Of a stretch of DNA of 64,000 nt, positions 44,588 to 63,956 are shown piece after piece (the stretch's first letter is position 1; each line of letters begins with the position of its first letter). This stretch comes from an uncultured Naasia sp. (GTDB taxonomy: Bacteria; Actinomycetota; Actinomycetes; Actinomycetales; Microbacteriaceae): positions 1 through 64,000 of the forward strand of contig CAJYYA010000014.1 of the NCBI GenBank assembly GCA_913778905.1, given 5' to 3'. The notes beneath the pieces were generated by a model. The model did not search any database and was not told the origin of the DNA. It saw nothing but the letters and a program-made list of their open reading frames with translations. The position numbers and the translations under genes are program-made.

Positions 44588-45433
44588 ATGTCGACCGGAG
44601 CTGACGCGCGCAAGCGCGTGGAGTTGCCCGGCGGATCCACCGCCGAGGTCAGGATCGTCGGACACACCGACACGGGGCACGTCCGTCGCGCCAACGAGGA
44701 TTCCTTCCTCGCCCGCTTCCCGCTCGGCATCGTCGCCGACGGCATGGGCGGGCACGAGCACGGGGCCCGGGCGAGCAATGCCATCGTCGAAACCCTCGCC
44801 CGCCTGGTCGGCGACAGCCTGCCGACCGCTGACGACGTGATCGGCGCCCTCCACGACGCCAACGAGCGTGTGCTCGGAGACGCCGGCGCCGAGCATCGCT
44901 CGGGCAGCACCGTGACAGGGGTCTGCCTCATCCAGGACGCCCACGGCGCCGACGTGAACTGGCTCGTCGTCAACGTCGGCGACTCGCGCGTCTACAGCTG
45001 GGACGGCCGGTATCTCGAGCAGATCAGCGTCGACCATTCGCTCGTGCAGGAACTCGTCGACGAGGGGCTGATCACCGCCGATCAGGCGTCGTGGCACCCC
45101 GATCGCAATGTCATCACGCGCGCCGTGGGCACCGACGTGCTCGTCGACATCGATGTCTGGCTCCTCCCCGCGAACGGGTCGCAGACGTTCCTCGTCTGTT
45201 CGGACGGCATCACGAAAGAGCTCGGCGACGCTCAGATCGCGTCCATCCTCGCGGCCCACGACCACGAAGACGTCACGGTCGCCGAAGCCCTCGTCGAGGC
45301 GGCCCTCGCGGTCGGTGGGCGCGACAACGCGACAGCGGTCGTCGTGGAGTTCGAGCGCGACGCGGCCTTCGACGATCACACGACGGGGCAGCGCTCGCCC
45401 GCGATCCTGGAAGACACCCGGCCTCGCGGCTGA
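44588..45433 (+). CDS. PP2C-family Ser/Thr protein phosphatase
   Basis: The 281-residue phosphatase has the PPM metal motifs RRANEDSF near 34-41, VADGMGGHEHG near 49-59, and NVGDSRVYSWDGRYLEQISVDHS near 135-157. FLVCSDGITKEL and GGRDNATAVVVEF complete the set. The Asp ligands for two Mn2+/Mg2+ ions are all present. It should reverse phosphorylation by the kinase encoded at 46719. It is the first gene of the signalling locus and appears leaderless. It is cytoplasmic, with no membrane segment. Confidence 0.94.
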   Translation: MSTGADARKRVELPGGSTAEVRIVGHTDTGHVRRANEDSFLARFPLGIVADGMGGHEHGARASNAIVETLARLVGDSLPTADDVIGALHDANERVLGDAGAEHRSGSTVTGVCLIQDAHGADVNWLVVNVGDSRVYSWDGRYLEQISVDHSLVQELVDEGLITADQASWHPDRNVITRAVGTDVLVDIDVWLLPANGSQTFLVCSDGITKELGDAQIASILAAHDHEDVTVAEALVEAALAVGGRDNATAVVVEFERDAAFDDHTTGQRSPAILEDTRPRG

Positions 45434-45459
45434 CGACCGAGAACGACACGGGACGATTG

Positions 45460-46722
45460 ATGGGGACGAACGTGGAAACGACGCGGGACGACGACTGGGG
45501 TGCGAGCTACACGGTGGCGGACACCGGATGGCTCCTCCTGGCGCGCCCGGGCTCGGCCCTGCTCATCGACTCCGCCGACGACGCGTCGACGGACGCGCTC
45601 GGCGAGGCGCTCGCGGCCGCGGATCCGGGTGGAGCCGTGCTCGGTCGGTTGCTCGCCTCGGGTCTCGCAGGACTGCCGTCGTTCGCTTTCGCCGAGACGA
45701 CGGGCACCGGGTGGCGCGTCATGGTGCGCGGAACAGCATCGGTTCTCACCGGCGACGAGCGGGTCGACGGCGGCGACTACACGACCTGGGCCGAGCGGCT
45801 GCTCTCCGGTGACGAGATCTCGCTGCAGGGAGGGCCCGCCTCCGGCGGTCGTCGACTGCGCCTCCGCGACGGGGTCGTTCCGACGAACTCGGTGACGTTG
45901 CGCTCCGGCCGCGCTCCGGCCACAGCGCCCGTCGCGGTCGGGTCCGTCGAGGAACCGGCGCAGCCCGCGACCAGTTCTGTCGACCCGGAGGCGGCCTCCG
46001 TCGCCGCGCCCGAGTCCGCCGCTGCCGAGCCCGCCACCGAGCCCGAGCCCGCTCCGATCATCACCGTCCCGCCGATCGTCGCGGCTCCGCCTGCGCCGAC
46101 CCCGGTCTCGGAGAACACCATCGCCGAATTCACCTCGTCGGGACCGGGCGACGCCTACGCCCATCTGTTCGAAGAGACGGTCGTGCGCCCCATCGAATCG
46201 GCGGCGGTCCGCGAACCCGACGAGACGGAGGAGTCGGCACCCTCTGCAGCTCCGATGGATTCGGGAGAGCACGACGGCATGACCGTCCTCAGCGGTGATC
46301 TCCAGAAGCTCCGTCAGCAGGCCGCAGCGGAGAACGCGCAGCGCGGCGGGGGAGCAGCGGGCGCCGACAAGACGCCGCGTCTGGTCCTGGTGTTCTCGAC
46401 CGGCCAGCGCGAGGCGCTCACGGGATCCGTCATCGTCGGCCGGTCGCCTTCGGCGTCCAAGGTCTCGGCGGGCAGCATCCCGCGCCTCGTCGCCATCCCC
46501 GACGACCCCGACCTGTCTCGCAGTCACGCCCGCGTCGATCTGAGCGGCGACTCCGCCGTCGTCACCGACCTGCATTCCGTCAACGGCACGAGCATCCAGC
46601 TCCCCGGCCAGGCACCGCAACGCCTCCGCGCCGGTGTGCCGTCGACCGTCCTGGCGGGGACCGTCATCGATCTCGGCGGCGGCCTCACCATCACCGTGAC
46701 GGATGAGGCGGATCTCGGATGA
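45460..46722 (+). CDS. FHA-domain protein with candidate phospho-acceptor threonine
   Basis: The 420-residue protein has an N-terminal domain of unknown family (about 10-155) and a Pro/Ala/Glu-rich linker. The C-terminal FHA domain (about 305-415) shows VIVGRSPSASK, then DPDLSRSHARVDL and HSVNGTSIQL, the phosphothreonine-binding GR, SRSH and NGT motifs. EETVVRP at 238-244 resembles the kinase target site of GarA/Odhl-like proteins, with T240 as acceptor. It probably binds the phosphorylated kinase and is itself a substrate. The ATG at 45460 is chosen; a GTG 12 bases on is possible. It overlaps the kinase gene by ATGA. Confidence 0.87.
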   Translation: MGTNVETTRDDDWGASYTVADTGWLLLARPGSALLIDSADDASTDALGEALAAADPGGAVLGRLLASGLAGLPSFAFAETTGTGWRVMVRGTASVLTGDERVDGGDYTTWAERLLSGDEISLQGGPASGGRRLRLRDGVVPTNSVTLRSGRAPATAPVAVGSVEEPAQPATSSVDPEAASVAAPESAAAEPATEPEPAPIITVPPIVAAPPAPTPVSENTIAEFTSSGPGDAYAHLFEETVVRPIESAAVREPDETEESAPSAAPMDSGEHDGMTVLSGDLQKLRQQAAAENAQRGGGAAGADKTPRLVLVFSTGQREALTGSVIVGRSPSASKVSAGSIPRLVAIPDDPDLSRSHARVDLSGDSAVVTDLHSVNGTSIQLPGQAPQRLRAGVPSTVLAGTVIDLGGGLTITVTDEADLG

Positions 46723-48431
46723 GGCGGCTTCCTCAAACCCCGCCTGAGCTGCGCGGGTACAGCTTCGTCAAACTGCTCGGGACCGGCGGATTCTCCGACG
46801 TGTTCCTCTACGAACAGGCGCTGCCGAAGCGCAACGTCGCGGTCAAGGTGCTGCTGGCCGACGATCTGGCGCCCGCCTCGCGCGACGCGTTCGTCGCCGA
46901 GGCAAACCTCATGGCCCAGCTGTCGGCGCATCCTTACATCGTCACGATCTTCCACGCCGACGTGACCGACGACGAACGCCCCTACTTCGTCATGGAGTAC
47001 TGCTCCGGGCCCAGCCTCGCCGAGCGGTACAAGCGCGAGACGTTCTCGGTCTCCGATGCCCTGCGCATCGGGGTGCGGCTGTCGGGGGCCATCGCGACCG
47101 CGCACGCGGCCGGGATCCTCCACCGCGACATCAAGCCCGGCAACGTGCTCACCAACGACTACGGCTGGCCCGCGCTCACCGACTTCGGCATCTCGTCGAG
47201 CCTCGAGGAGGAGCTGCCGGTCCACACGACGACGGCCGGCACCGGTCTCGAGGCCGGGGGCACCACCGGGGGCGGCGCGTCCGTCGGCCTGAGCGTGCCC
47301 TGGTCGCCGTCAGAGATGTTCGAGGACGACCCCCAGCCCGACGTCCGCAGCGACGTCTTCTCGCTCGCCGCCACCATCTGGACCCTCCTCGCCGGCCGGT
47401 CGCCGTTCGAGATCCCGGGCCGTTCGAACGGCACGCTCGACCTCATCGGGCGGATCGAACGCGGCGCCATCACGCCACTCGGTCGCGACGATGTGCCGCG
47501 CTCGCTGGTGGCCGTGCTGCAGAAGGGCATGTCGCTGCGCAGTGCCGACCGTTTCGCGACGGCGATCGACTTCGGACGGGCCCTGCAGCGCGTCGAGCTG
47601 GAGCTCGGCTACTCGCCGACCACCATCGAGGTCCCGAACCTCGAGCTCGAACAGGTCGCCGTCGACGGCGGCGAGGATGGCGACGAGACCCGGGTTCGTT
47701 CAGTCGCGACCATCGAAGCCCAGCCGCTCGCCCCTGCGTCGCCGACGATGCCCGGTCGGATCGAGGCTCCCGCCTCCCCGCCGTCCGAGGAGCCCACGCG
47801 CGCGCGAAGCGTCACGACCATCCAGCCCGAGTCGATCCCTCGAACGGACGCGTCGGAGGTCGTCGATCGGACTCAGCTGCGGCGTCCGGCGACGCCCGCC
47901 TCCGAGGACACCGTCGCCCGGCCCCGTGTGCCGGTTCCGCCGCCTCCCGCAGCGCCCGCTCCCACCGAGGCCCCGCCGGAAGCGAGCCCCGATCCTGCAC
48001 GCCGGCGCTCGCGCCGCGGTCTCGTGACGACGCTCGTGATCGTCGGCGCGCTCGTGGTGGTCGGCGGTGGCGTCACGGCGGCGATCCTCAGCACGGGGGT
48101 TCCCGAGCCGGAGACGACGAACCAGGCGAGCGGCGGCACCGGAGGAGACCCCGCCGACGCGATCGTGGGCGGCGGCGTCCCGGCTCCGACCGACGGTGCG
48201 GCGACCCGCGGCGACGGCAACACCTCCGTGACCTTCGTCTGGAAGAACCCCGCCCCTCAGGACGGCGACGCCTACCGGTGGTGGAGGTCGGAGCAGCCGG
48301 GGTCGGTCAATGCGACGAAGGAGGCCCTCGCCACCATCGCTCCCGTCGACCCTGCTTCGCGCGTCTGCATCACCGTCGAGCTCCTGCGCGGCGGCAAGAC
48401 CGGCACACCTGCGGAGTTCTGCAACCCGTGA
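46719..48431 (+). CDS. Membrane-anchored Ser/Thr protein kinase (PknB-type)
   Basis: The 570-residue kinase has the glycine loop LLGTGGFSDVF near 18-28, catalytic K43, HRDIKPGN at 135-142 and DFG at 155-157. The kinase domain ends near 290. A linker follows with two similar segments, TRVRSVATI (324-332) and TRARSVTTI (360-368), and a basic stretch. The transmembrane helix is at about 434-457. The extracytoplasmic tail of about 110 residues lacks PASTA repeats and has two Cys. It should sense or dock to the surface and phosphorylate the neighbouring FHA proteins. Both ends are coupled by overlaps. Confidence 0.94.
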   Translation: MRRLPQTPPELRGYSFVKLLGTGGFSDVFLYEQALPKRNVAVKVLLADDLAPASRDAFVAEANLMAQLSAHPYIVTIFHADVTDDERPYFVMEYCSGPSLAERYKRETFSVSDALRIGVRLSGAIATAHAAGILHRDIKPGNVLTNDYGWPALTDFGISSSLEEELPVHTTTAGTGLEAGGTTGGGASVGLSVPWSPSEMFEDDPQPDVRSDVFSLAATIWTLLAGRSPFEIPGRSNGTLDLIGRIERGAITPLGRDDVPRSLVAVLQKGMSLRSADRFATAIDFGRALQRVELELGYSPTTIEVPNLELEQVAVDGGEDGDETRVRSVATIEAQPLAPASPTMPGRIEAPASPPSEEPTRARSVTTIQPESIPRTDASEVVDRTQLRRPATPASEDTVARPRVPVPPPPAAPAPTEAPPEASPDPARRRSRRGLVTTLVIVGALVVVGGGVTAAILSTGVPEPETTNQASGGTGGDPADAIVGGGVPAPTDGAATRGDGNTSVTFVWKNPAPQDGDAYRWWRSEQPGSVNATKEALATIAPVDPASRVCITVELLRGGKTGTPAEFCNP

Positions 48432-49159
48432 CACCGCCGCTGAAGGTCGAATACTGCGGCGAGTGGTTCACCGTCGACGGGTCGATCGAGTTCGGGATCG
48501 GGCGCGAGGCCGAGCTGACGATCGACGAGAACCCCTACCTGCACCGCCGATTCCTGCTGCTGCGCCACGAATACGGGATGTGGTGGCTCGTCAATGCGGG
48601 TGCGCTCCTCTCCGCCACGGTCACCGATGCATCGGGGCTCGTGCAGGCCTGGTTGGCGCCCGGCGCGAAGCTCCCCCTGGTCTTCCCGGTCATGCACGTC
48701 ATGTTCAGCGCCGGGTCGACGACGTACGACTTCACGATCCACCTCGAGAGCGACTTCTTCGACACCGCGGCCACCGCGCAGGAAGCCGGAGGGTCGACGA
48801 CCATCGTCCCGGTCACGCTGACGACGAGTCAGCGTCGCCTGGTGGTCGCACTCGCGGAGCACGTGCTCACCCAGAACGTGCCGGGGCGCGGCACCATCCC
48901 GACCTCCGCGGAGGCCGCGGAACGTCTGGGGTGGACCATGACGACCTACAACCGCAAGCTCGACAACGTATGCGAGAAGCTCGACCGGCTCGGGGTACAG
49001 GGACTGCGGGGCGGACGCGGCAAGTTGGCGACCAACCGGCGGGCGCGGCTGGTCGAGTACGCCGTGGCGACCCATCTCGTGGGGCCCGAGGATCTCGCTC
49101 TCCTCGACCATAACGATCCAGTGAATTCTCAGGATGGGGAGCTCTCCCCATCGCCATAA
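48428..49159 (+). CDS. Degenerate FHA-like protein with C-terminal winged-helix domain
   Basis: The 243-residue protein appears to have two domains. The N-terminal half (EFGIGREAELTIDENPYLHRRFLLL, about 20-44) follows the FHA beta-sandwich layout but lacks the Ser of the SxxH motif, so phosphothreonine binding is doubtful. The C-terminal half (LTTSQRRLVVALAEHVLTQ, AEAAERLGWTMTTYNRKLDNVCEKLDRLGV) looks like a winged helix-turn-helix of the LuxR/GerE-like or OmpR-like type. It may couple kinase signalling to transcription. The GTG overlaps the kinase stop by GTGA. It precedes the giant surface-protein gene. Confidence 0.75.
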   Translation: MTPPLKVEYCGEWFTVDGSIEFGIGREAELTIDENPYLHRRFLLLRHEYGMWWLVNAGALLSATVTDASGLVQAWLAPGAKLPLVFPVMHVMFSAGSTTYDFTIHLESDFFDTAATAQEAGGSTTIVPVTLTTSQRRLVVALAEHVLTQNVPGRGTIPTSAEAAERLGWTMTTYNRKLDNVCEKLDRLGVQGLRGGRGKLATNRRARLVEYAVATHLVGPEDLALLDHNDPVNSQDGELSPSP

Positions 49160-49241
49160 TCCACAGGTGCGGGGTACGTTCGAGAGTCGTTCGTGTACAG
49201 ATGTGTCGACACGCGTCTAGCTGACTGGGAGAAAGACACGT

Positions 49242-52200
49242 ATGAGGTTCACGTCGTGGCTGCGCGAGCGCAAGACGCTCGCGTCCACGGTGACGCTCGC
49301 GCTGATCGCCGGCATCCCCGTCACCTTCGCGGTCCTGCACCAGGGTTTCCCCATCACGGACGCGGACCTGACCACGCGTGACGTGTGGGTCACCAACGGC
49401 GACCGCCTGCTCGCCGGGCGACTCAATCGGCAGATCGAGGAGCTCAACGGCGCCGTCGAGACCTCGAGTCGCGCCATCGACGTGCTCCAGAACGGCGCCG
49501 ACGTCTTCCTCGTGGATGCCGAGAACGCGTCCGTCGAGCGCATCGACCCCGCCTTCACGACCCTCGTCCAGAAGGCCGACCTCCCCGCCGGAGCCCAGCT
49601 GGCGTTCGGCGGCAAGACCCTCGGCATCCTGGACCCCGCCGACGGCCGCGCCTGGGCCGTCAGCGTCGAGAACGAACTGAGCTTCGACCCGCTGACCCTG
49701 GAGCCCGACGTCAAGGCCGGGGCCGACGCCTCGATCGCCGTCTCGGAGAAGGGTGAACTGTTCGTCGCGTCACCGGCGGAGAAGGCGCTGTTCTCGATGG
49801 AGAAGGTGGGCGACGCCCCCGACAAGCGCGAGCTCGACATCTCCGGGCCGGTCCAGATGGCCACGGTCGGCGAGGTCCCGGTCATGCTCGACACGGCCGC
49901 CAACGAGGTCGTCCGCCAGGACGGATCGCGCGTGTCGCTCCCCGCCACGGGTCTCGCGATCCAGCAGTCCGGCGCGAAGAACGACTTCGTGCTGGTGGCC
50001 GGATCCGACGCGCTCCTGCGGGTTCCGCTCAGCGGCTCCGACGTGGTGAGCACCCCTGCCGACGTGGCGCGTCCCGCCGACGACGAGAAGGGCGTTGCCC
50101 GGCCCGTCTGGCTCGACGGGTGCGCCCATGCGGCCTGGGCGGACTCCTCTCGCTATCTCCGTGTCTGCGACGGCAGCGATCCTGCCGCCTTCGACATCGA
50201 GCAGTCGACCGCTGGACAGCAGCTGACGTTCCGGGTCAACGGCTCGGTCATCGCGCTCAACAACATCGACAACGGCAACACCTGGGTCCTCAAGGACTCC
50301 CTGCGCCTCGTCGACAACTGGGACGAGGTGACCCCTCCGAAGGAGGAGGACAACCAGGAGGGCGACCAGAAGTCGACCCGCAAGTCCTACGAGGACATCC
50401 TGGCCGACCGCACCGAGCAGAACCGACCCCCGACGGCCGAGGACGACGACTTCGGTGTCCGACCGGGCCGCACGACGATCCTCCCCGTGCTCGACAACGA
50501 CACGGACCCCGACGGCGACGTGCTGACCATCACCGACTTCACGCAGCTGCCGCCCGACATCGGCCGGATCGACGAGATCGACGACGGTCGGGCCCTGCAG
50601 TTCACCGCGGGCACGGCGACCATCGGGACGGCCTCGTTCCGCTACACCGTGTCGGACGGGCGGCCCGGTGGCGTCGACGAGGCGCTGGTCAACGTGCGCG
50701 TCGTACCTCTCGAGGTCAACAACCCGCCCGTGCAGAAGCGCGTCGCATCGCAGGCACTCGAGGCCGGCCAGACGCTCAGCTACAACGCGCTCACCGACTG
50801 GATCGACCCGGACGGCGACGACATCTTCCTCGACGCCGCATCGGCCACGTCGGCGGACGGAGTGCGCTCCACGCCCGACGGATTCGTCACGTTCGAGCAC
50901 CGTTCCGGAGAGCTCGGCCTCAAGGAGGTCGGCCTCGTCGTCTCCGACGGGCAGCTGACCGCCGAGGGCGCCTTCAACGTCGATGTCCAGCCGCCGGGAA
51001 CGCTCAAGCCCATCGCGACGGCCGACTACATCCGCCTGTTCGTGAACGAGGTCGGCGAACTCGAGCCCCTCGCGAACGACCTCTCGCCCTCGGGTGCCCC
51101 GATCTCGTTGGTCGGCGTCGACAAGGTCGATCCGGCGTTGACCGTCCAAGCGAACCCCGACTCCGGCAAGGTGTCGATCTCGGGTGCGCGGGCGGGCGAT
51201 TACGAGTTCACGTATTCGATCGCCGCGGGCGGGCAGACCTCCACGGGTATCGTCCGCGTGAGCCTCGTCGAGAACCCGGCCGATCCGCTGCCTCCCATCG
51301 CGGTCAAGGACACCGCGTTCCTCCGCGTCGGCGAGCCGGTCACGGTCAAGGTCCTTGCCAACGACGTGTCGCCCAGCGGTCGCGTGCTCGGGATCCAATC
51401 GGTGGACACCTCCGCGGCGGCCGCGGGTCTCTCCGTCGAGGTGCTCGGCAACACGCTCATCCGTGTGAGCTCCAGCACCGCCCTCGACGCGCAGACGCAG
51501 TTCACCTACACGGTCTCCGACGGTCAATCGACTGCTCTCGCGGGTGTCACGGTCGTGCCCGTCCCGCCGGTCGTGCAGCGACAGCCGCCCGTCGCGGTCG
51601 ACGACAAGGTCACGGTACGGGCCGGTGACATCGCCCGCGTGCCGGTGCTCGACAACGACTACCACCCCGATCAGGCGACCCTCATCCTCGAGCCCGACCT
51701 CGTCGAGACGGACAACATCGGCGACGGCGCGCTCGCGTTCGTCTCCGAGGGGACCGTGCGCTATCAGGCGCCGAGTGAACCGGGCCAGTACTCGGCGGTC
51801 TACCGTGTGGCCGACCGCTACGGCGAGTCCGCGACGGCCACGGTGACCTTCGTCGTCACCGCTCCCGACGCCGAGGGCAACCGGCCGCCCGTCCCCGTCA
51901 CGCAGACCGGGCGTACGTTCGCCGGCTCCACCATCCGCGTCGACGTGCCGCTCGACGGCATCGACCCGGACGGCGACTCCGTGCTGCTGACCGGTCTCAA
52001 TCAGGCTCCCCAGCTGGGCCGCATCGTCGAGACGGGCACCACCTACTTCGTCTACGAGGCGTACGACACGTCGGCCGGAACGGATTCGTTCACCTATCAG
52101 GTCGAGGACACGTTCGGGCTCCGCGCGTTCGGGACGGTCCGGATCGGCGTGATCCCGCGACCCGCCGAGGCCCTGGCGCCCATCGCCGTCGACGACGCGG

Positions 52201-54782: not shown

Positions 54783-54821
54783 GACCGCGCCGCGGACCCT
54801 GTGAGAGCGAGAGAGAGCGAC

Positions 54822-55790
54822 ATGCCCGTAACCCAAGAGCAGGCCGACTGGTTCCACGGCGCCTTCGACAGCCTGGTGGCGAACATCGACCAGGCCATCC
54901 TGGGCAAGCGCGAGGTCATCCGCCTCGTCGTGACCACCATGCTGTCGGGCGGGCACATGCTGCTCGAGGACTTCCCGGGAACCGGCAAGACCGTGCTCGC
55001 CAAGGCGCTCGCGAACACCATCGACGGCTCGCACTCGCGTATCCAGTTCACCCCCGACCTGCTGCCCTCCGACGTCACCGGTGTGACGATCTACGACCAG
55101 GGCAAGGGGATCTTCGAATTCCACAAGGGACCGATCTTCGCCTCGGTGATGCTCGCGGACGAGATCAACCGCGCCAGCCCCAAGACGCAGAGCGCACTGC
55201 TCGAAGTCATGGAGGAGGGCGTCGTGACGGTCGACGGCGTCGGCCACGAGGTGCCGAGCCCGTTCATGGTCATCGCGACACAGAACCCCGTCGAGCAGGC
55301 CGGAACCTACAAGCTCCCCGAGGCGCAGCTCGACCGCTTCCTCATGAAGACCTCGCTCGGCTACCCCGATCACCGCACGACGGTGTCGCTGCTGCTCGAC
55401 TCCCAGAACCGCGCCCGCGCCTCCAAGATCTCGCCCATCATCGCGGGGTCGTCCATCGTGTCGATGGCGCAGCTCGCGAGCGAGGTGCACGTCGAGTCGA
55501 GCGTGATGGAGTACGTGAGCGAGATCGTCACCGCGACGCGTTCCGACAAGGACGTGGCGCTCGGTGTCAGCATGCGCGGGGCCCTCGCCCTCGCGCGCGC
55601 CATCAAGACCTGGGCCATCGCCGCGGGTCGCACCTACGCGACCCCCGATGACGTCCGCGATCTGGCGGTGCCCGTCCTCGCGCACCGTCTCATCCTCGAC
55701 CCCGAATCCGACTTCGCCGGCGTCACCGCCGCCGACGTCATCTCACGAGTCCTGGTCGACATCGCACCCCCGGCGACCCGCGCGGCATGA
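54822..55790 (+). CDS. MoxR-family AAA+ ATPase
   Basis: The 322-residue AAA+ ATPase has Walker A DFPGTGKT at 50-57 and Walker B MLADEINRASPKTQSALLEVMEE. Sensor 1 is in FMVIATQNPVEQAGTYKLPEAQLDRF, and the C-terminal lid domain is normal. MoxR proteins act as chaperone-like remodelling factors, usually with VWA or DUF58 partners, as here. The ATG at 54822 follows GAGAGA; an in-frame GTG at 54801 is less likely. It overlaps the DUF58 gene by ATGA. Confidence 0.94.
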   Translation: MPVTQEQADWFHGAFDSLVANIDQAILGKREVIRLVVTTMLSGGHMLLEDFPGTGKTVLAKALANTIDGSHSRIQFTPDLLPSDVTGVTIYDQGKGIFEFHKGPIFASVMLADEINRASPKTQSALLEVMEEGVVTVDGVGHEVPSPFMVIATQNPVEQAGTYKLPEAQLDRFLMKTSLGYPDHRTTVSLLLDSQNRARASKISPIIAGSSIVSMAQLASEVHVESSVMEYVSEIVTATRSDKDVALGVSMRGALALARAIKTWAIAAGRTYATPDDVRDLAVPVLAHRLILDPESDFAGVTAADVISRVLVDIAPPATRAA

Positions 55791-57211
55791 CGCAGGTGGT
55801 TCCGCCCGTCGAGGGCGAACGCCCCGACGGGGGCGCCGAGGAGCGCGCAGCGGAGACGCCGTCGCGCCGTGCTGCCCGCCGTCCGGCGAGCGAGGAGAAG
55901 GGCGCGAAGCGTCGGAACCCGGGTGCCGCGCGCCGCGGGGCGACCGCTCGCCGCGGCCGAGCGCGCGCCGCCGCGAAGATCGGGCCCTCCGCGTTCGCCC
56001 GCGCACTCCACGGTCCGGCCGTACTGGTCGGCTCCGGGTGGCGCGCCCTCGCACGACTGCTCGGGCCGGTCCTCGCCACCGTCAGCGCGCTCGGCTGGGT
56101 CGTCCTGCTCGCCGCAGCCGCGACGCTGGTCGCGGGCTACCTGCTGGGATGGCACGAACTGGTCTTCCTCGGCTTCACCCTCGCCGCCGCGCTCGTCGTG
56201 GCGGCCGCCTACCTCTTCGGGCGCAGCGACTACAGCGTGTCCATCGAGCTCTCGCCGACCCGCGTCGTCGCGGGGGGCCGCGCCCTCGGCCGTCTGGTCA
56301 TCACGGGTCGACGGAAGCGCAGCGCGCCGAGCCGCATCGAGCTGCCGGTCGGGCAGGGACTCGCGGAGTTCATCGTCCCGGGCATCGGCGCGGGGGAGTC
56401 GCACGAGGAGCTCTTCGCCGTCCCGACCAATCGTCGGGCCGTCATCGTCGCCGGACCGGCCGTGTCGGTCCGCGGGGATCAGCTGGGGCTCGTTCGTCGC
56501 GTCCTGCGCCTCACCGAAGAAGTCGAGCTGTTCGTCCACCCCAAGACGACACGTCTCGATTCGAGTGCCGCCGGGCTGGTCCGCGACCTCGAGGGCGAGA
56601 CGAGCAAGAAGATCACCAACAACGACATCTCGTTCCACGCCCTGCGCGCCTACGAGCCCGGCGACGATCGTCGGTACGTGCACTGGCGCACCTCGGCCCG
56701 CACGGGTCAGCTCATGGTGCGGCAGTTCGAGGAGACCCGGCGATCGCAGCTCACGATCATCCTCGCGACCGACCGGCGTCACTACGCGGACGACGACGAG
56801 TTCGAGCTGGCCGTCTCGGTTGCCGCGTCGCTGGCGGGTCAGGTCATCCGCAACGGCACCCGGCTCGACGTCGTGACCGACACCATGCAGCTGCGCACCC
56901 GCAGCGTGACGTCGATGCTCGACGACTCGTGCAGGATCGAGCAGACCGACACCGGTCTCTCAGCTCGTGACGCCGTGAGGGCCGCCACCTCTCGGCTCGC
57001 GGCACCCAGCGTCGCCATGGTCGTCGCCGGATCCCGGTTCGGGGTGTCCGACTACCGCGCCATCGAGGTGCTGTACGGCGTGGACACCGAGACCATCGGG
57101 TTCCGCATCGACGCGAGCGAACCGTCGCGGATCCTGTCCGTCGCGGGCCTCAACATCCTCTCCGTCGCCGCTCTCACCGACCTCCCCCGACTCGTCAGGC
57201 GGGTGACATGA
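55787..57211 (+). CDS. DUF58 domain membrane protein (MoxR partner)
   Basis: The 474-residue protein has a long basic cytoplasmic N-terminus (about 1-70, Arg/Ala-rich) and two membrane helices at about 95-145. A cytoplasmic region follows carrying the DUF58 signature YEPGDDRRYVHWRTSARTGQLMVRQFEET near 288-316. VWA-like features follow in LTIILATDRR. DUF58-MoxR-transglutaminase triplets are widespread and are thought to act in surface or polysaccharide-related assembly. It is coupled by ATGA to both moxR and the transglutaminase-like gene. Confidence 0.9.
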   Translation: MTQVVPPVEGERPDGGAEERAAETPSRRAARRPASEEKGAKRRNPGAARRGATARRGRARAAAKIGPSAFARALHGPAVLVGSGWRALARLLGPVLATVSALGWVVLLAAAATLVAGYLLGWHELVFLGFTLAAALVVAAAYLFGRSDYSVSIELSPTRVVAGGRALGRLVITGRRKRSAPSRIELPVGQGLAEFIVPGIGAGESHEELFAVPTNRRAVIVAGPAVSVRGDQLGLVRRVLRLTEEVELFVHPKTTRLDSSAAGLVRDLEGETSKKITNNDISFHALRAYEPGDDRRYVHWRTSARTGQLMVRQFEETRRSQLTIILATDRRHYADDDEFELAVSVAASLAGQVIRNGTRLDVVTDTMQLRTRSVTSMLDDSCRIEQTDTGLSARDAVRAATSRLAAPSVAMVVAGSRFGVSDYRAIEVLYGVDTETIGFRIDASEPSRILSVAGLNILSVAALTDLPRLVRRVT

Positions 57212-59622
57212 GCACCACGCCGCCCGTCCCGAGTCAGGTTCCGGGCGTGCCCGGCCGCGCTCCGGCCGCCGAGGCGTCGACGAAGCCACGTGCGCCGCTG
57301 GCCTGGCCGAGCACCCGCTCGTGGATCGACATCGCCGTCATCGCCGTGCTGTCGGTCCTCGGCATGGTCGGGCTCACCACGTCGTTCGCGGACCCCCTCT
57401 ACCTGGTCGCCGGCATCGGCGGCATCCTCGTCGGCGCGCTCGTCGCCCTGCTGGGCACGGCCTTGCGCTGGCCGGTCGTCGTCACTGTGCTGGCCGGCAT
57501 CGTCGCCTACTTCCTGCTCGGCAGCCCGCTCGCGATGCCGAACGAGGCGCTGTTCGTGATCCTGCCGAGCCTGCAGACGCTGTCCGGCCTCGCCGTCGGC
57601 GCTGTGTTCGGCTGGGCCGACCTCGTCACGCTTCGCGCGCCCGTCAGCCTGCCGTACTACGTGACCGCCGTGCCCTATGTGTCCGGGTGGCTGATCATGC
57701 TCGTGAGCGTGCTGCTCGCACTGCGCTGGTTGCCCGGGCGCGGCGGGGCGTGGCGGACCGCCGCCGTGCTCGCGGGCCCGCTCGTCCTGTACGTGGTCGG
57801 CGTGCTGCTCGGCACGGAACAGCCGTTCTTCGCGGGCGTCCGCGGCGTCCTGTTCGCCGCCATCGCGCTGGTCTGGATGAGCTGGCGTCGACGAGACTCG
57901 GCTCGGGTCGCCCAGGCCGCCAACGCCGCGGTGCGCCGCCGCCGCATCGTCGGCACGGCCATCGTGGTGGCCGCCGCCGTGCTGCTCGGCGCTGGCAGCG
58001 GACTGCTCTTCGCGCCCGCATCCGACGCCCGCTACGTGCTGCGCGACGAGATCCAGCCGCCGCTCGAGCCGCTCGACTATCCGAGCCCGCTCGCCGGCTT
58101 CCGCACCTACACGAAGGATCTCAAGGAGACGGACCTCTTCACCGTGACGGGGCTCGCGGAGGGCGAGCGCGTGCGCACCGCGACCATGGACAGCTACAAC
58201 GGCGTCATCTGGAACGTCGCCGGGGCCGAGGAGTCGAGCGACGGATCGGGCGAGTTCAGCCTCGTCGGCCGCAGCGTCCCGGTGCCCGCTGTAGCCGAGG
58301 GGGCGAGTCCCGTGAACCTCGACGTCACCATCAGCGGCTACAGCGATGTCTGGTTGCCCGACTCCGGGTACGCCACCTCCTTCGGGATGACCCGCGAGCA
58401 GTTGGCGGCTCTCCGTTACAACCCGTCGACGGGAACGGCCGTCATGACCGACGGCCTCACGACGGGGGAGACCTACTCGGTAGCGGCCCTCGTGCCCCCG
58501 ACTCTGACAGATGCGGACCTCGCCGATGTGCCGGTCGCGACCACCCAGCTCGCGCCGGTCGACAACGTCCCCGACATCGTGACGGCCAGAGCCCTCGAGT
58601 TCGCCGGGGCCGCGACGACTCCCATCGAGAAGCTCCGCAACATCGAGACCCGACTGAAGACCACGGGCTTCCTCAGTCACGGCACCGCCTCCGACTCGGC
58701 CCCGTCGCGGGCGGGCCACGGCGCCGACCGCATCAACGAGCTGCTGACGCTCGACCCGATGGTCGGCGACCAGGAGCAGTACGCCTCGGCCTTCGCGCTC
58801 ATGGCGCGCAGCCTCGACTACCCCGCACGGGTCGTGATGGGTTTCGCCCCGCAGGTGCCCGCGGGCGGTGGCCCCGTCACGGTGACGGGCGACGACGTGA
58901 CGGCGTGGGTCGAGGTCGCGTTCGAAGGCAAGGGGTGGGTGGCATTCGACCCCACACCGGACGACACCGATGTGCCGCAGAGCCAGGTGCCGAAGCCGCA
59001 GACCGAGCCGCAGCCGCAGGTCCGACAGCCTCCGCGCGCCGACAACGAGCAGGAAGACCTCGTCAACCCTACGGACATCGAGGAGAACGACACCGACGAC
59101 GAATCGCCCTTCAGCATCCCCGGATGGGTCGTCGTCCTGGCGCTGAGCATCCTCATCCCTCTCCTCATCGTCCTCGGGCCGGTGCTCGTCATCGCTCTGA
59201 TCAAGCGTCGTCGGGAACGACGCAGGCGGTCGGCCGAGGCCGGTCACGAGCGCGCGGCAGGTGCCTGGGCGGAGTTGCTGGATCGCTACACCGAGCTCGG
59301 CTATCCCGTCCCCGCTCGACTGACGCGGACGCTCACGGCGCGCGAGCTGGAACAGCGCGTGCCGGGGGTGGAGAACGGAGCGCTCGTGTCACTCGCGCAC
59401 CGGACGGACGACGCCGTGTTCGGCGGAGGGGAGGTCTCGCCCGAGGCCGCCGAGAAGGTCTGGACCGAAGCGGAGGGTGCCGCCGCCGCCGCGACGGCGG
59501 CGCAGACCCGCGTCAAGCGACTGCTGCGGCTCTACCGGCTCCGGTCCCTCATGGAGCGCTACGGTGCGCTCGTCCGACGGGCGGAGAACGGACCGGGTCC
59601 GAAGCGCCGAGACGACTCGTGA
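57208..59622 (+). CDS. TgpA-like membrane protein with catalytically degenerate transglutaminase domain
   Basis: The 804-residue protein has about seven membrane helices (about 30-265), then an extracytoplasmic transglutaminase-like domain (about 450-585). A Pro/Gln-rich linker, one more membrane helix (about 640-670) and a cytoplasmic tail complete it. In the core motif the nucleophile position, usually GxCxxFASA, reads GDQEQYASA with Q522. The catalytic His of HAWVEV is T565. The Asp in FDPTP (D581) is kept. The domain is therefore likely non-catalytic and may bind peptides. It overlaps DUF58 by ATGA. Confidence 0.9.
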   Translation: MSTTPPVPSQVPGVPGRAPAAEASTKPRAPLAWPSTRSWIDIAVIAVLSVLGMVGLTTSFADPLYLVAGIGGILVGALVALLGTALRWPVVVTVLAGIVAYFLLGSPLAMPNEALFVILPSLQTLSGLAVGAVFGWADLVTLRAPVSLPYYVTAVPYVSGWLIMLVSVLLALRWLPGRGGAWRTAAVLAGPLVLYVVGVLLGTEQPFFAGVRGVLFAAIALVWMSWRRRDSARVAQAANAAVRRRRIVGTAIVVAAAVLLGAGSGLLFAPASDARYVLRDEIQPPLEPLDYPSPLAGFRTYTKDLKETDLFTVTGLAEGERVRTATMDSYNGVIWNVAGAEESSDGSGEFSLVGRSVPVPAVAEGASPVNLDVTISGYSDVWLPDSGYATSFGMTREQLAALRYNPSTGTAVMTDGLTTGETYSVAALVPPTLTDADLADVPVATTQLAPVDNVPDIVTARALEFAGAATTPIEKLRNIETRLKTTGFLSHGTASDSAPSRAGHGADRINELLTLDPMVGDQEQYASAFALMARSLDYPARVVMGFAPQVPAGGGPVTVTGDDVTAWVEVAFEGKGWVAFDPTPDDTDVPQSQVPKPQTEPQPQVRQPPRADNEQEDLVNPTDIEENDTDDESPFSIPGWVVVLALSILIPLLIVLGPVLVIALIKRRRERRRRSAEAGHERAAGAWAELLDRYTELGYPVPARLTRTLTARELEQRVPGVENGALVSLAHRTDDAVFGGGEVSPEAAEKVWTEAEGAAAAATAAQTRVKRLLRLYRLRSLMERYGALVRRAENGPGPKRRDDS

Positions 59623-59667: not shown

Positions 59668-59673
59668 TATAGT
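59668..59673 (+). promoter_or_regulatory. -10 element for leaderless FHA gene
   Basis: TATAGT lies 6 bases before the GTG at 59680, with no Shine-Dalgarno sequence. The spacing predicts a transcript starting at the start codon. The identical hexamer serves tRNA-Glu at 21934. Confidence 0.65.
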
Positions 59674-59679
59674 CGGAAC

Positions 59680-60240
59680 GTGGCTGACAGCGGATTCATC
59701 GTGCCGCCGCCGGGGCTGCTCCCCGAGCCGGTGCAGGCTCCCTCGCGTTCCGAGGTGCCCGAGGTGTCCGGCCCGGCCCCCATCTTCTTCACCACCCTCC
59801 CCGGGGGTGCACCTCCGGCCGCGCCCGAGCCGGACGAAACTGCCGCCGAGGCGGTCGCGGAGGTCGCCGCCGACGCCCCGCCGACGGACGTCGCGGGACC
59901 CGAGGACCACACGGGATGGATCCTCGCGGGAGACGGTGTCTCGCTCGACACCGTCCCGCCCGTGCTCGTGCTGGGCCGCGAGCCCGTCAGTTCCGAGGAT
60001 GGCGCCGCTCTCATCGCGGTCTCCGGTGCGGGTACGGTCTCGAAAACCCACGCGATCATCCGGTTCGACGGCGAGACGCTCAGCGTCGAAGACCTCGGCT
60101 CCACCAACGGGACCGCAGTCACCGTCGCGGGAAAGCGCACCGTTCTGGACGCCCGGACCCCGTTCGTGGTCGGCGACGACGCGGAGCTCCGCCTGGGCGA
60201 CGCCCGACTCGACCTCCGACGGGCGATGCTCGACCACTGA
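59680..60240 (+). CDS. FHA-domain protein
   Basis: The 186-residue protein has a Pro/Ala/Glu-rich N-terminal half and a C-terminal FHA domain (about 85-180). Motifs are VLVLGREPV, GTVSKTHAIIRF and DLGSTNGTAVTV, with the Arg, Ser and Asn contacts for phosphothreonine all present. It is cytoplasmic and presumably recognises a phosphorylated member of this locus. The GTG at 59680 appears leaderless behind TATAGT. It is separated by 57 bases from the transglutaminase-like gene, so it has its own promoter. Confidence 0.9.
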   Translation: MADSGFIVPPPGLLPEPVQAPSRSEVPEVSGPAPIFFTTLPGGAPPAAPEPDETAAEAVAEVAADAPPTDVAGPEDHTGWILAGDGVSLDTVPPVLVLGREPVSSEDGAALIAVSGAGTVSKTHAIIRFDGETLSVEDLGSTNGTAVTVAGKRTVLDARTPFVVGDDAELRLGDARLDLRRAMLDH

Positions 60241-60422
60241 CGGGCATCCGAACTTTCGGACTTCCCATGACGGGCTCCGTTGACCTCTCCCGATGCGGAC
60301 GCCGGGCATAGCCTGAGCGCACGCCTCCTCTCGCCGAATTCGCCACCACCTGGCGCGCCGATCCGCTCGCGATCGTCGCGATCCTCGGCGCAGCCATCGC
60401 CTATCTCGCAGCGGTACGGCGC

Positions 60423-61205
60423 GTGCGCGCCGAAGGGCAGAGGTGGCCTCTTCGCCGCACGATCGGGTTCTTCGTCCTCGGGCTGGGGTCCTACGCCGTC
60501 ATCGAGCTCGGCTTCCTCGGGGTGTGGTCGAACGAGCTGCGATGGGCGTTCACGACCCGGATCGCGCTGCTCATCTTCGTCGTGCCCGCCGGTGTGGCCG
60601 CGGGTGCCCCGCTCGAACTCTTCCGTCGCGCGGGAGGGGAGCGTGCGGAGGCCGTGTTGGAGAGGGCTCTGGCGTCTCGTCTCGTGCGTCTGGGCGGTAA
60701 CGCCATGGTCGCCACCATCGTCATCGCGGCGGTCTTCTGCCTGTTCCTGACGCCCGTCGCCGGTGTGTTGAGGACCACTCCCTGGGTGAACGAGGGGCTC
60801 GGGCTCCTCGTGCCGATCGTCGGAATGGGCATGGTGCTGCCGATGAGCGCCTTCGGCACCATGCGCACGAGCCTGTTCATCGCGATCGAGTTCCTGCTCG
60901 CGTTCTTCGAGCTGCTGATCGATGCGATCCCCGGCATCCTGCTGCGGTTGAACGACACGGTCGTCGACTCCGTCTCGACACTGGGCGCCACACCCGGGTG
61001 GTGGCCCTCGCCGCTGCACGATCAGCACCTCGCGGGCGACTTCCTGTGGTTCATCGGCGAGGCGGCCGACGTGCCGATCCTCGTGCTCCTCCTCATCCGG
61101 TGGATGCGGCACGACCGATCCGAGGCGAAGGCCTTCGACGAGCTCGACGACGACGCCCACGAGCAGCTCATGCGCGCCCACCTGCGAGGCGGCGGAGTCG
61201 GCTGA
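60423..61205 (+). CDS. CtaG-like (caa3 cytochrome oxidase assembly) membrane protein, start unresolved
   Basis: From the GTG at 60423 this encodes 260 residues of a polytopic protein of the CtaG/DUF1404-like cytochrome c oxidase assembly family. Landmarks are LELGFLGVWSNELRWAFTTRIALL-type helices and a C-terminal HDQHLAGDFLWFIGEAADVPILVLLL. The same frame upstream to a TAG at 60309 reads LAEFATTWRADPLAIVAILG followed by AAIAYLAAVRRV, clearly the family N-terminus and first helix, but has no ATG, GTG or TTG. The true start is therefore a non-standard codon, or a frameshift joins it to the TTG at 60280 in another frame. The role is inferred from family only. Confidence 0.75.
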   Translation: MRAEGQRWPLRRTIGFFVLGLGSYAVIELGFLGVWSNELRWAFTTRIALLIFVVPAGVAAGAPLELFRRAGGERAEAVLERALASRLVRLGGNAMVATIVIAAVFCLFLTPVAGVLRTTPWVNEGLGLLVPIVGMGMVLPMSAFGTMRTSLFIAIEFLLAFFELLIDAIPGILLRLNDTVVDSVSTLGATPGWWPSPLHDQHLAGDFLWFIGEAADVPILVLLLIRWMRHDRSEAKAFDELDDDAHEQLMRAHLRGGGVG

Positions 61206-61382
61206 AGCCTCGATGCGAGGTGCCTCGACCACTCCGTGTCGACCATCTCTCGGTTCCTGATGGACATGGGTATTCGATGGGGAGTGGTGCCCATTCCGTC
61301 ACATGGTGGGGCACCGTAGATTGGTCTCACTCGGTCACCTGTGAGGGCCGGCCCCACGAACACAACCAGGGAGTGATCAACA

Positions 61383-61679
61383 ATGCCGAACGTCAACGTC
61401 ACCTACAGCGACATGACCGATGCCGCCAACCGTCTTATCGCCGGTAAGGACGACATCACCGCCAAGCTCACCGAGCTGCAGTCTCTCGTCAACGGACTCG
61501 TCCAGGGCGGCTTCGTCACCGACGCGGCGTCCGGTGCGTTCCACTCGTCCTACGAGCAGTTCACCAAGGGCACGACCGACGCCGTCGCCGGTCTCGACGG
61601 GATGTCGCAGTTCCTGACGCGCGCCGCGGACGCCATGCAGAACCTCGACAGCGAGCTCGCCAAGGGCATCGGCGGCTGA
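61383..61679 (+). CDS. WXG100/ESAT-6-like small secreted protein
   Basis: The 98-residue all-helical protein has two helices split by a central turn, as in WXG100 proteins. The turn reads GGFVTDAASGAF near residues 42-53, so the Trp-X-Gly is replaced by FVT. ANRLIAGKDDITAKLTELQS precedes it, and the second helix contains YEQFTKGTTDAVAGLDGMSQFL, typical of the family. Such proteins are exported by type VII or related systems, but no EccC/FtsK-type ATPase is in the window. AGGGAGTG precedes the ATG. A strong terminator follows, so it is a single-gene unit. Confidence 0.85.
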   Translation: MPNVNVTYSDMTDAANRLIAGKDDITAKLTELQSLVNGLVQGGFVTDAASGAFHSSYEQFTKGTTDAVAGLDGMSQFLTRAADAMQNLDSELAKGIGG

Positions 61680-61701
61680 GCCGTCCCCACACACGACGAA
61701 G

Positions 61702-61733
61702 AGCGGCCCGGATCCCACAGGATCCGGGCCGCT
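61702..61733 (+). terminator. Terminator after the WXG100-like gene
   Basis: A 14-bp perfect stem, AGCGGCCCGGATCC (61702-61715) with 61720-61733, has a CACA loop. Further partial pairing of CACGACGAA with TTCGTGTCG flanks it. It lies 22 bases after the stop and can also serve the convergent minus-strand gene ending at 61783. Confidence 0.85.
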
Positions 61734-61782
61734 TCGTGTCGTTCCAGCGTCCGTGGCGAGTGCGCCGACGACGAGTATCGCG

Positions 61783-62667
61783 TCAGATGATGCTCTCGCC
61801 CCGTCCGATGCGCTCGCCCGCGCGCCAATACTGGGTGGCGAGAACGGCGCCCAGCGCGACGAGCAGCAGCCCGCCCGCCACCATGGCGAAGAAGGCGGTC
61901 GAGGCGCCATCGTCGTCGGCGACGTAGGGGAGCAGCGTCACCGAGAAGGCGACGAGGGTGCCGCCGATGCCCGCGAGCCACAGGTCGAAGCGCCAGCGGT
62001 AGGTGATCCAGCGCCAGAGACGGTTGCTCTCCCCGCTGTCGAGGCGATCCGGGTGGCGGGCCATGACCCCCGCCCAGACGGCCTTCTTGAGGAGGGAGAC
62101 GAGAGCTGCGGCGGAGGCTCCGAAACCGAGGGCGCCGTAGATGACCCAGGACTGGCCGAAGTCGCCGCCGGACGGATCCGAGTACGGCCAGGCGCCCGTC
62201 ACCCAGGATGCGGCGGGAGCGCCCACGAGGAAACCGCTCACGATGAGGCCGAGCACCGCCCATAGCGCGTGCCAGCCGTAGGAGAGCGCTCCGAAACGGG
62301 AGACGATCGATCCCGTCGAGCGCACGGGTGAGTTCTCCAGGGAACTGAGAGCGAGCGATCCCCGCCGGACCTGCTCGCCGAGCACGAGACCGGTGAGCGC
62401 GAACAGCACGAGCATCGCGGGGACCAGCAGGACACCGAGTTCGAGTGCCGGCCGCAGCGTCTCGAGGACTTCGATGCTCGCGCCCGATCGGCGGGCGCTG
62501 TCGGCAGCGGAGATGAGGAGCCCTCCGCCGATCAGCGTGAGCAGGATGACGGCGAGGATCCCGCCTCCGATGAGGGAGATGATGGTGCCCGCGCGGCGCT
62601 CGTTGGTGCCCTTCCGGATCAGGAGGGCGGCGGCCTCCGCCTCGGACAGTTGCGCTCTGGCCGCCAT
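61783..62667 (-). CDS. Polytopic membrane protein of unknown function
   Basis: The 294-residue protein has about six to eight hydrophobic segments: GTIISLIGGGILAVILLTLIG, LELGVLLVPAMLVLFALTGLVLG, WHALWAVLGLIVSGFLVG and later helices. A short charged N-terminus (LSEAEAAALLIRKGTNERRAG) resembles a cytoplasmic cap. No family is recognised. It is convergent with the WXG100-like gene and 51 bases downstream of the unknown gene pair on the same strand, so it may belong with them. Only a weak Shine-Dalgarno precedes the ATG at 62667. Confidence 0.7.
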   Translation of the reverse strand: MAARAQLSEAEAAALLIRKGTNERRAGTIISLIGGGILAVILLTLIGGGLLISAADSARRSGASIEVLETLRPALELGVLLVPAMLVLFALTGLVLGEQVRRGSLALSSLENSPVRSTGSIVSRFGALSYGWHALWAVLGLIVSGFLVGAPAASWVTGAWPYSDPSGGDFGQSWVIYGALGFGASAAALVSLLKKAVWAGVMARHPDRLDSGESNRLWRWITYRWRFDLWLAGIGGTLVAFSVTLLPYVADDDGASTAFFAMVAGGLLLVALGAVLATQYWRAGERIGRGESII

Positions 62668-62718
62668 GAGAACCCCCTCGGCTTCGACCGTGCAGATGTC
62701 GGGAAGTGCCCTTCGAGA

Positions 62719-63336
62719 CTAGCTCGACGTCTCCTGCGACGACCGGCGCCAGGTGAGCGAATCGACGATGGAGTCGAAAAGCGTGAGCCACAGGTCGACG
62801 TCGGCGGCCATCGGAGCCGAGACGGTGATGACGAGCAGACGGTCCGAGTCGGGGTAGGGGATCCAGAACTGCGACCGGGCGCTCGGGAGCTCCTCCTCGC
62901 CGACCGTCACCGAACCCACCTCCTGCACCCGCGCGACCGGGCCCATCCGGTGCTCCACGATCTCAGCGCCGGGGAACGCGGCGGCCAGAGCCGCGGCGCG
63001 ATCCTCGCGGGGGAAAGTGCCTCCCGCGGCGGGCCACCGGTCGTCGATCGTGACGAGCGAGCCGGGGAAGGGAACGCCGGGGAGGATCTCCATGGCCAGA
63101 TACATGGCGTCGGCGCCGGTCTGCCGGGCCTGCTGCGCGGTGGCGAGCAGGTCGTCGACGGCGCCGCGTCGCTGGCGGGCGAGGCGATCGTCGCGGCCGA
63201 CACGAGCGGTCACCGTGCGCTTGATGCGCTCGCGCAGCTGCTGGTCGTCCTCCGAGAAGGGCAGGGCGAGCCAGGACCCGGGGAAGAGCAACGTGTAGTC
63301 GGCCGTGGGCTGGACGAGCTGGCGGGGATCGGTCAT
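62719..63336 (-). CDS. Protein of unknown function (coupled pair, second gene)
   Basis: This soluble 205-residue protein is of unrecognised family. It opens with TADYTLLFPGSWLALPFSEDD near 10-30, followed by a charged helical region and a beta-rich C-terminus (SARSQFWIPYPDSDRLLVITVSAP). The start is the ATG at 63336, which overlaps the upstream stop (ATGA); an in-frame ATG at 63384 lies in the upstream gene. Its neighbour has a similar layout (PESWEPMPLGEE near the N-terminus, VPFPETGR later), so the two may be diverged paralogues. Location beside a WXG100 gene suggests, weakly, a link to that secretion route. Confidence 0.7.
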   Translation of the reverse strand: MTDPRQLVQPTADYTLLFPGSWLALPFSEDDQQLRERIKRTVTARVGRDDRLARQRRGAVDDLLATAQQARQTGADAMYLAMEILPGVPFPGSLVTIDDRWPAAGGTFPREDRAAALAAAFPGAEIVEHRMGPVARVQEVGSVTVGEEELPSARSQFWIPYPDSDRLLVITVSAPMAADVDLWLTLFDSIVDSLTWRRSSQETSS

Positions 63337-63956
63337 CGGGTCTCCTCCGCCTGGATCTCGAGTCCGGCGACGAATTCGAAGCACTGCTGGGGCATGTTCG
63401 TGAAGGAGCCGAGCCCTTCGGCGGAGAAGATGAACTGCACGACCTCGGACGTGGCCGGCGGGAACACCGTGATGACCACGCGCTCTTCCAACTGCGCCGC
63501 CTCAGGGTCGTCCGTCGTGTGGGCGATGAGGTTGTGCGAACCGACCACGTCGCCGGCGTCGATCGAGCTCCGCCACGTCGAGACCGAGTAGTAGCTCTCC
63601 TCTCCGGAGGTGCGGTCGGCGTAGGAGGCGAGGAAGGCCTCGTACTCGTCAGGCGAGCCGACACCCGCCCGGTCGGTGAGGAGGAAGATCATGGCCGCGC
63701 TCGCGCGCCCGGTCTCCGGGAACGGGACCCAGACGGCCGCGCGGATCCGCGGATCATCCATCGAGGCGAACTGCGCCTGCGCGGCGGTGAGCTCCATCGC
63801 CAGCATCCGCTCGCCGAACTCATCGGCCGGGACCAGCCGTGCTGCGAGCTCGTCGGCCCACTGCGGGGGAGCTTCCTCCCCGAGCGGCATGGGCTCCCAC
63901 GACTCGGGCAGCGCCACCTTGAAGTCGGAGATCTCGCGGTCGAGTCGTTCGGTCAC
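63333..63956 (-). CDS. Protein of unknown function (coupled pair, first gene)
   Basis: The 207-residue soluble protein has DREISDFKVALPESWEPMPLGEE at the N-terminus, a helical ADEFGERMLAMELTAAQAQFAS segment, and beta-rich AAVWVPFPETGRASAAMIFLL. The C-terminal EERVVITVFPPATSEVVQFIFSAEG is also beta-rich. No known family is recognised. The GTG at 63956 is used; the upstream region lies at the window edge, so a preceding gene of the same operon cannot be excluded. It overlaps the following gene by ATGA. Confidence 0.7.
   Translation of the reverse strand: MTERLDREISDFKVALPESWEPMPLGEEAPPQWADELAARLVPADEFGERMLAMELTAAQAQFASMDDPRIRAAVWVPFPETGRASAAMIFLLTDRAGVGSPDEYEAFLASYADRTSGEESYYSVSTWRSSIDAGDVVGSHNLIAHTTDDPEAAQLEERVVITVFPPATSEVVQFIFSAEGLGSFTNMPQQCFEFVAGLEIQAEETR

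Follow-up and report, generated by a model that had tools for sequence, protein, structure and literature searches.

A kinase, phosphatase and FHA gene run with a giant surface protein, probably part of a type VII secretion island of Actinomycetota

In a 64,000-nucleotide stretch of an uncultured Naasia sp. of the Microbacteriaceae (assembly GCA_913778905.1, contig CAJYYA010000014.1, positions 1 to 64,000; hereafter the window), genes for a Ser/Thr kinase, a PP2C phosphatase and FHA proteins stand next to genes for a giant surface protein, a MoxR ATPase, a DUF58 protein and a transglutaminase-like protein (TGM). Eight plus-strand genes form one run from 44588 to 59622 with 4-nt overlaps or short gaps; the open reading frames and Pfam matches confirm this reading of the earlier note. 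To which system does the run belong? It is likely, at a probability of roughly 0.6, that the locus is part of an actinobacterial type VII secretion system (T7SS) island, in which a kinase/phosphatase/FHA switch is combined with a giant protein assembled by MoxR, DUF58 and an inactive TGM. The island continues past the end of the window with the genes of an EssC-type FHA ATPase and a T7SS-signal protein. The parts are ordinary; the whole is unusual and conserved.

The core of the run (kinase, giant, MoxR, DUF58, TGM, PP2C and FHA) is, by sequence comparison, homologous to the PFNA operon of Bifidobacterium. The view of the earlier note that the system was not characterised is not supported, as PFNA already has this core. 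The PFNA operon consists of pkb2, fn3, aaa-atp, duf58 and tgm, to which some species add prpC, a hypothetical gene and fha. In B. longum GT15 the genes are reported to be transcribed together, and Pkb2 is reported to phosphorylate the PFNA MoxR protein in B. longum (PMC8430577). A fragment of the B. longum FN3 protein is reported to bind TNF-alpha (PMC10688814). The window and PFNA share the kinase, the fn3 giant, MoxR, DUF58 and tgm in the same order on one strand, and their giants are of similar size and carry fn3 domains. In contrast to PFNA, the window has an extra gene between the kinase and the giant, for an FHA-like protein with a helix-turn-helix (FHA-HTH), has its PP2C and FHA1 genes upstream, and has a T7SS ATPase and a WXG100 gene nearby; its genome also belongs to another family than the Bifidobacterium-like genomes. 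The identity between the window and the locus of B. xylocopae (L229) is 49% for MoxR, 31% for TGM, 31% for DUF58 and 28% for the giant. Seven genomes of family f4 are considered to be Bifidobacterium-like, because their giants are the seven best matches of the B. xylocopae giant among the fetched segments.

PFNA was published as "found only in bifidobacteria". This exclusivity does not hold in the present data. The first 393 residues of the giant matched (E <= 0.001) in 55 of the 119 genomes of the window's order, distributed in 29 of 55 genera. Some of these matches are fragments, and three have E values above 1e-4. When genome contigs were scanned with an alignment of the TGM motif, at least 591 stretches were obtained, and 588 of the 591 listed are relatives. 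The best 80 of these at least 591 stretches include Microbacterium, Herbiconiux, Agreia, Subtercola, Cryobacterium, Georgenia, Occultella, Cellulomonas, Arthrobacter and Bifidobacterium xylocopae, and some of the named module-bearing genera we take to be free-living. In a whole-phylum sample, the FHA-HTH protein was found in 10 of 246 genomes, 4 of them outside the window's class. No close MoxR relative was found in viral contigs by a search that reaches close relatives only. Records titled Bifidobacteriaceae MAG (L230), Planococcus sp. (L233) and Microthrixaceae MAG (L196), MAG being a metagenome-assembled genome, also carry such loci; the best matches of L230 are not from f4, and all three are possibly mislabelled or mis-binned contigs. 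In Microbacterium sp. NIBRBAC000506063 (L206), the frames of the giant, of TGM and of EssC are all broken into pieces, by decay or sequencing error.

The gene order is conserved in its main part. In 58 fetched segments, 50 of 56 giants are followed on the same strand, within 9-11 kb downstream, by MoxR, DUF58 and TGM. The six exceptions are two giants of G118 with the trio on the other side, two loci with MoxR not called (G018 and G065), and two isolated giants (G005 contig C11 and G114). The same trio stands behind 66 of the 67 giants in 80 named loci, which were chosen by TGM. The linkage of MoxR-DUF58-TGM to the giant is more than chance. A frequent order elsewhere is giant, MoxR, DUF58, TGM, FHA, PP2C, FHA1, kinase, FHA-HTH and EssC. 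A survey of neighbourhoods, as the earlier note proposed, found its blocks linked in relatives, and the linkage is not refuted. Together with the module homology, and with the EssC clade and the loss of the TGM Cys described below, this conserved linkage is what the sequences give directly, and it is well supported.

The ATPase gene is located on the contig (C14) at 65827-70488 on the minus strand, 1.8 kb past the window end, and encodes an EssC-type protein with an N-terminal FHA domain. A 465-residue protein with the T7SS-signal domain PF21725 is encoded between the window and EssC. The locus is to be read together with the T7SS genes past the window. The WXG100-like protein that the earlier note had placed downstream matches Pfam, while the T7SS locus to which it belongs had been missed; the gene gains meaning because the ATPase and the T7SS-signal protein are linked nearby. 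WXG100 was rejected as a member of the PFNA block itself, since, where found, it goes with EssC: WXG100-like genes, mostly below the Pfam cut-off, adjoin EssC in the loci looked at. An FtsK-like ATPase is the most frequent extra neighbour of the module (nine loci). Six of the nine were scanned with NCBIfam and all group there with T7SS EssC/EccC proteins, five below the curated cut-offs and that of G066 above the EccC ones; a Pfam FHA domain was found in two of the four neighbour ATPases scanned for it.

TIGR03928 matches 117 of the 119 genomes, probably because FtsK-type proteins score too, and the window's EssC scores below its cut-off. The N-terminal 500 residues of the window genome's EssC were therefore used as the query. 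They score at least 245 bits in 32 of the 119 genomes, the next best genome scoring 124 bits. The FHA-HTH protein scores at least 200 bits in 44. The giant and the FHA-HTH protein are both present in 40 genomes, the FHA-HTH protein and EssC in 29, and the giant and EssC in 27. In 17 of these 27 genomes, the distance from EssC to the giant is at most 25 kb. From EssC to the FHA-HTH gene it is at most 25 kb in 23 of the 29 (at most 5 kb in 17 of the 29), and from the giant to the FHA-HTH gene at most 25 kb in 32 of the 40. A placement model expects one or two within 25 kb, with p-values that assume independence of genomes. The position of EssC varies: it follows either the FHA-HTH gene or TGM, or is convergent, as at the present locus.

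EssC/EccC proteins of other types were found within ~25 kb of the giant in four more genomes (G036, G066, G078 and G095). On contig C45 of G066 (L073/L144), the giant-MoxR-DUF58-TGM run directly adjoins a T7SSa-like EccC, and EccB is on the same contig. The window genome (G000) has a second giant in a second PFNA-like copy on contig C23 at 85365-103362 (L034). There, an 865-residue FtsK/EssC-like ATPase without FHA match and a zinc-ribbon FHA protein are in the same run, and the second copies of G020 and G051 also have a similar ATPase as their last gene. In some Microbacterium loci (L174, L199, L213, L217 and L226), an FHA-bearing frame separates the FHA-HTH gene from the EssC frame, as though the FHA domain of EssC had a gene of its own.

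A quick, midpoint-rooted tree was made from 67 EssC-type rows, and 42 of these fall on one side of a branch with SH-aLRT support of 100. This clade comprises 33 linked rows (16 of which come from TGM-selected loci), another 8 rows of the clade type, and G112. The rows of G066, G095 and the T7SSd-like G078 fall outside. The next group consists of three EssCs of family f13 with support of 81. Their loci (L234, L237 and L239) encode a giant with Fn3 repeats, propeller-like by reading only and with a C-terminal hydrophobic segment, followed by MoxR and DUF58. The association thus seems to recur in a second EssC lineage, with a diverged version of the module. A kinase, PP2C or FHA-HTH protein of the PFNA-like family was found in none of 20 neighbourhoods of other-type EssCs, some of which end at contig ends. 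The FHA domains of linked EssCs retain GR and SxxH in 17 of 17 read, and NG in 15 of 17.

The earlier note called the transglutaminase-like protein a pseudo-enzyme, and the alignment bears this out: none of 134 aligned copies keeps the catalytic Cys. Among the 135 rows, the Cys column holds D in 98, E in 14, A in 9, S in 8, G in 4, Q in 1 and a gap in 1; the gapped row is a broken piece, so 134 rows were scored. The scan pattern allowed any residue at this position. His is kept in 87 of 134 and the third residue is Asp in 83 of 134; only Cys is lost throughout. In the window's copy, Cys is replaced by Gln and His by Thr. The substitution predicts a protein that is inactive by the usual Cys chemistry. 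Since His and Asp often remain, relatives that keep both may have some other activity or chemistry. TgpA occurs in a MoxR-DUF58-transglutaminase trio. The window has the same three families in a row as such TgpA-type trios, but the catalytic Cys is absent in its type of TGM. The PFNA work treats Tgm as an enzyme, presumably a cysteine protease (PMC8430577).

The FHA-HTH protein (48428) has no Pfam match. Its predicted structure (pLDDT 82) matches solved FHA domains best, the first in PDB being FHA-1 of Rv1747 (E 7e-6); the helical C-terminus reads as helix-turn-helix, and the regulators VqmA and RhlR are weak structural matches at ranks 36 and 50. Its homologues often adjoin EssC or the giant. 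Of the two FHA readers placed before the giant in the earlier note, FHA1 is upstream as described, but FHA2 sits behind the TGM gene; only one gene with a Pfam FHA match is upstream of the giant. The extracellular domain of the kinase looks Fn3-like by reading, and the kinase tail is conserved (100 kinases compared). The giant begins with a hydrophobic segment, transmembrane by reading, followed by a beta-propeller and then Big_9/fn3 stretches. The propeller model (pLDDT 92) matches an archaeal surface-layer YVTN propeller, virginiamycin B lyase and BamB in PDB. The published WSxS-like "cytokine-receptor" motif was considered as a sign of host contact and rejected. By a loose pattern, 19 of the 48 giants outside f4 have it too, as do 22 of 63 named giants when that of B. 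xylocopae is set aside; it is thus no sign of host contact.

We infer the following mechanism for the island, including the kinase control of fibre assembly. The transmembrane kinase would sense the envelope via its extracellular domain and phosphorylate partners, and PP2C would reverse this. FHA1, FHA2, the FHA-HTH protein and the FHA domain of EssC may read the phospho-mark and switch secretion and expression, much as in the threonine phosphorylation pathway of the type VI secretion system (T6SS). PppA is the PP2C phosphatase of that pathway. The likeness to PpkA, PppA and Fha lies in a membrane kinase, a PP2C phosphatase and an FHA reader around a secretion machine; the machine is another one, and the comparison is an analogy only. 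MoxR, DUF58 and the degenerate transglutaminase would form a membrane-bound assembly machine for the giant. The membrane-anchored giant may span the wall as a contact fibre, or as a scaffold of a conduit through which T7SS substrates pass. As PFNA, the module occurs in Bifidobacterium-like genomes without the clade-type ATPase.

Several observations weigh against the T7SS island. Clade-type EssC is lacking in 28 of the 55 giant genomes, including all seven giant genomes of f4. The giant and EssC are more than 25 kb apart or on other contigs in 10 of the 27 genomes with both. In G058 and G085, the FHA-HTH protein and EssC are present and no giant was detected; in G085, TGM-like and PP2C genes adjoin EssC. 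The p-values of the linkage are overstated because the genomes share ancestry. GR and SxxH are also found in 16 of 18 readable other-type EssCs and are hence not peculiar to the kinase-linked ones; the idea that these are special by an intact FHA was dropped for this reason.

The 28 genomes with the core and no clade-type EssC would fit a stand-alone operon for a surface adhesin and signalling, as proposed for bifidobacterial PFNA, with the T7SS being only a frequent neighbour. The reported binding of TNF-alpha by the B. longum fragment points the same way. We regard this explanation as unlikely, as EssC is linked in several gene orders and families, and in the second copies of G000, G020 and G051 the gene run itself includes an FtsK/EssC-like ATPase. 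Moreover, the three f13 EssCs have their own propeller-Fn3 giant, MoxR and DUF58 behind them, and the module is found in genera that are presumably free-living. Less probable still are two independent modules, a phospho-regulated T7SS (kinase, PP2C, FHAs, FHA-HTH and EssC) and an envelope machine of MoxR, DUF58, TGM and giant, unrelated in function. G058, with FHA, PP2C, FHA, FHA-HTH and EssC and no detected giant, and G114, whose kinase, FHA-HTH and EssC are 0.5 Mb from its giant, would be examples of such separation, but both halves are together in many loci, and in B. longum the module's kinase is reported to phosphorylate its MoxR (PMC8430577). That the linkage is merely inherited synteny with no functional meaning, which would agree with shared ancestry and with p-values that assume independence, is highly improbable, because the genes remain neighbours although their order and orientation vary from family to family.

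If the locus is part of a T7SS island, which kind of T7SS is it? T7SS in general is indicated by the presence of both an EccC/EssC ATPase and a WXG100 protein. EccB, the T7SSa marker, has no match in the window genome (E 1e-5); it matches in 19 of the 119 genomes, 15 over the cut-off. The T7SSb marker, the EssB pseudokinase, has no match in the window genome either (E 0.01). The EssC N-terminus looks ubiquitin-like by reading, and two relatives have no ubiquitin-like (EsaB/YukD) Pfam match. The types T7SSc to T7SSj have been described, several of which include kinases, phosphatases and FHA proteins (Garrett, Higginson and Palmer 2024, PMC11217815). In T7SSd, phosphothreonine residues of the ATPase are conserved, and TsdI is a 1654-residue Ig-like protein that may span the envelope; T7SS phospho-components are compared with T6SS regulation in the discussion of that paper (PMC11217815). 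Because T7SSd and others were published with kinases, FHA and TsdI, neither the idea of a phospho-switch nor an Ig giant at a T7SS is new.

The window resembles T7SSd in being an actinobacterial T7SS with a kinase, an FHA ATPase bearing phosphothreonine-binding residues, and a large Ig-like protein. It differs in the phosphatase, absent from the five published core components of T7SSd, and in MoxR, DUF58 and transglutaminase, which are named nowhere in the main text of PMC11217815. The C-terminal transmembrane segment of TsdI is not seen in the window's giant by reading. The EssC clade excludes G078, which served in the tree as the stand-in for T7SSd and was judged T7SSd-like by gene content. 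The T7SSd-like locus of this Bifidobacterium-like genome (contig C2 391000-410000; L145 and L146) is ~23 kb from its PFNA locus, and encodes WXG100, a kinase, a 1798-residue Ig-like protein with two terminal hydrophobic segments, and EssC. The EssC clade may stand unnamed in the trees of PMC11217815. No paper joining PFNA or MoxR-DUF58 with T7SS was found in the literature searched, with subscription papers and preprints outside. With somewhat less than even confidence, we propose a subtype of T7SS in Actinomycetota that PMC11217815 does not name in its main text. A kinase/phosphatase/FHA switch, with the ATPase itself as reader, would gate its secretion, and a machine of MoxR, DUF58 and degenerate transglutaminase would build an envelope-spanning giant as contact or conduit element. 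The bifidobacterial "immune-sensing" PFNA would then be this module freed from the secretion ATPase.

The features of the window are listed in Table 1, where the kinase, Walker and FHA motifs (HRD and DFG; GR, SxxH and NG) have their generally known meaning. A TerC-family gene at 43521-44555 precedes the phosphatase gene, likewise in both genomes of genus g2 (G020 and G051). The CtaG-like gene was rejected as a part of the system, as no copy was found in other fetched neighbourhoods. O1, O2 and O3 on the minus strand (61783-63956) have no Pfam match at E 0.1.

Table 1. Genes of the locus and its downstream flank in the window.
Feature	Position	Strand	Basis
PP2C-type Ser/Thr phosphatase, cf. 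PrpC of PFNA	44588..45433	+	Pfam PP2C_2; NCBIfam Stp1-like, below cut-off
FHA1, C-terminal FHA domain	45460..46722	+	Pfam FHA 28 bits; GR, SxxH, NG by reading
Transmembrane Ser/Thr kinase, cf. Pkb2	46719..48431	+	Pkinase 1e-31; HRD and DFG by reading
FHA-like and HTH protein, candidate phospho-responsive regulator	48428..49159	+	Model pLDDT 82; PDB FHA matches; linkage
Giant surface protein, 1846 aa, cf. FN3 of PFNA	49242..54782	+	9 Big_9 and 2 fn3 stretches (Pfam); propeller model
MoxR AAA+ ATPase	54822..55790 (or GTG start at 54801)	+	AAA_3 7e-62; Walker motifs by reading
DUF58 protein, hydrophobic segments by reading	55787..57211	+	DUF58 8e-13
TgpA-like membrane protein, degenerate transglutaminase domain (TGM)	57208..59622	+	Transglut_core 1e-16; active-site check
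FHA2	59680..60240	+	Pfam FHA 33 bits; GR, SxxH, NG by reading
CtaG-like gene, between FHA2 and WXG100 genes	60423-61205		Pfam
WXG100 protein, probable T7SS substrate or core partner	61383..61679	+	Pfam WXG100 E 9e-16; TIGR03930 39.5 bits, below its cut-off
O1, membrane protein downstream of T7SS-signal gene	61783..62667	-	Position
O2	62719..63384	-	Homologue after T7SS-signal-type gene in G070 as well
O3	63333..63956	-	Homologue after T7SS-signal-type gene in G070 as well
3' end of T7SS-signal-domain gene	63976..64000, continues on contig C14 to 65373	-	PF21725 36.1 bits, cut-off 27

PFNA, which has been studied as a host-immune sensor of bifidobacteria and was said to be confined to them, is recast here as a module of many other actinobacteria, often beside a T7SS. 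In the island, Gram-positive bacteria may have a counterpart to the phosphorylation switch of the T6SS, and a secretion read-out would make it possible to test what MoxR-DUF58 pairs do.

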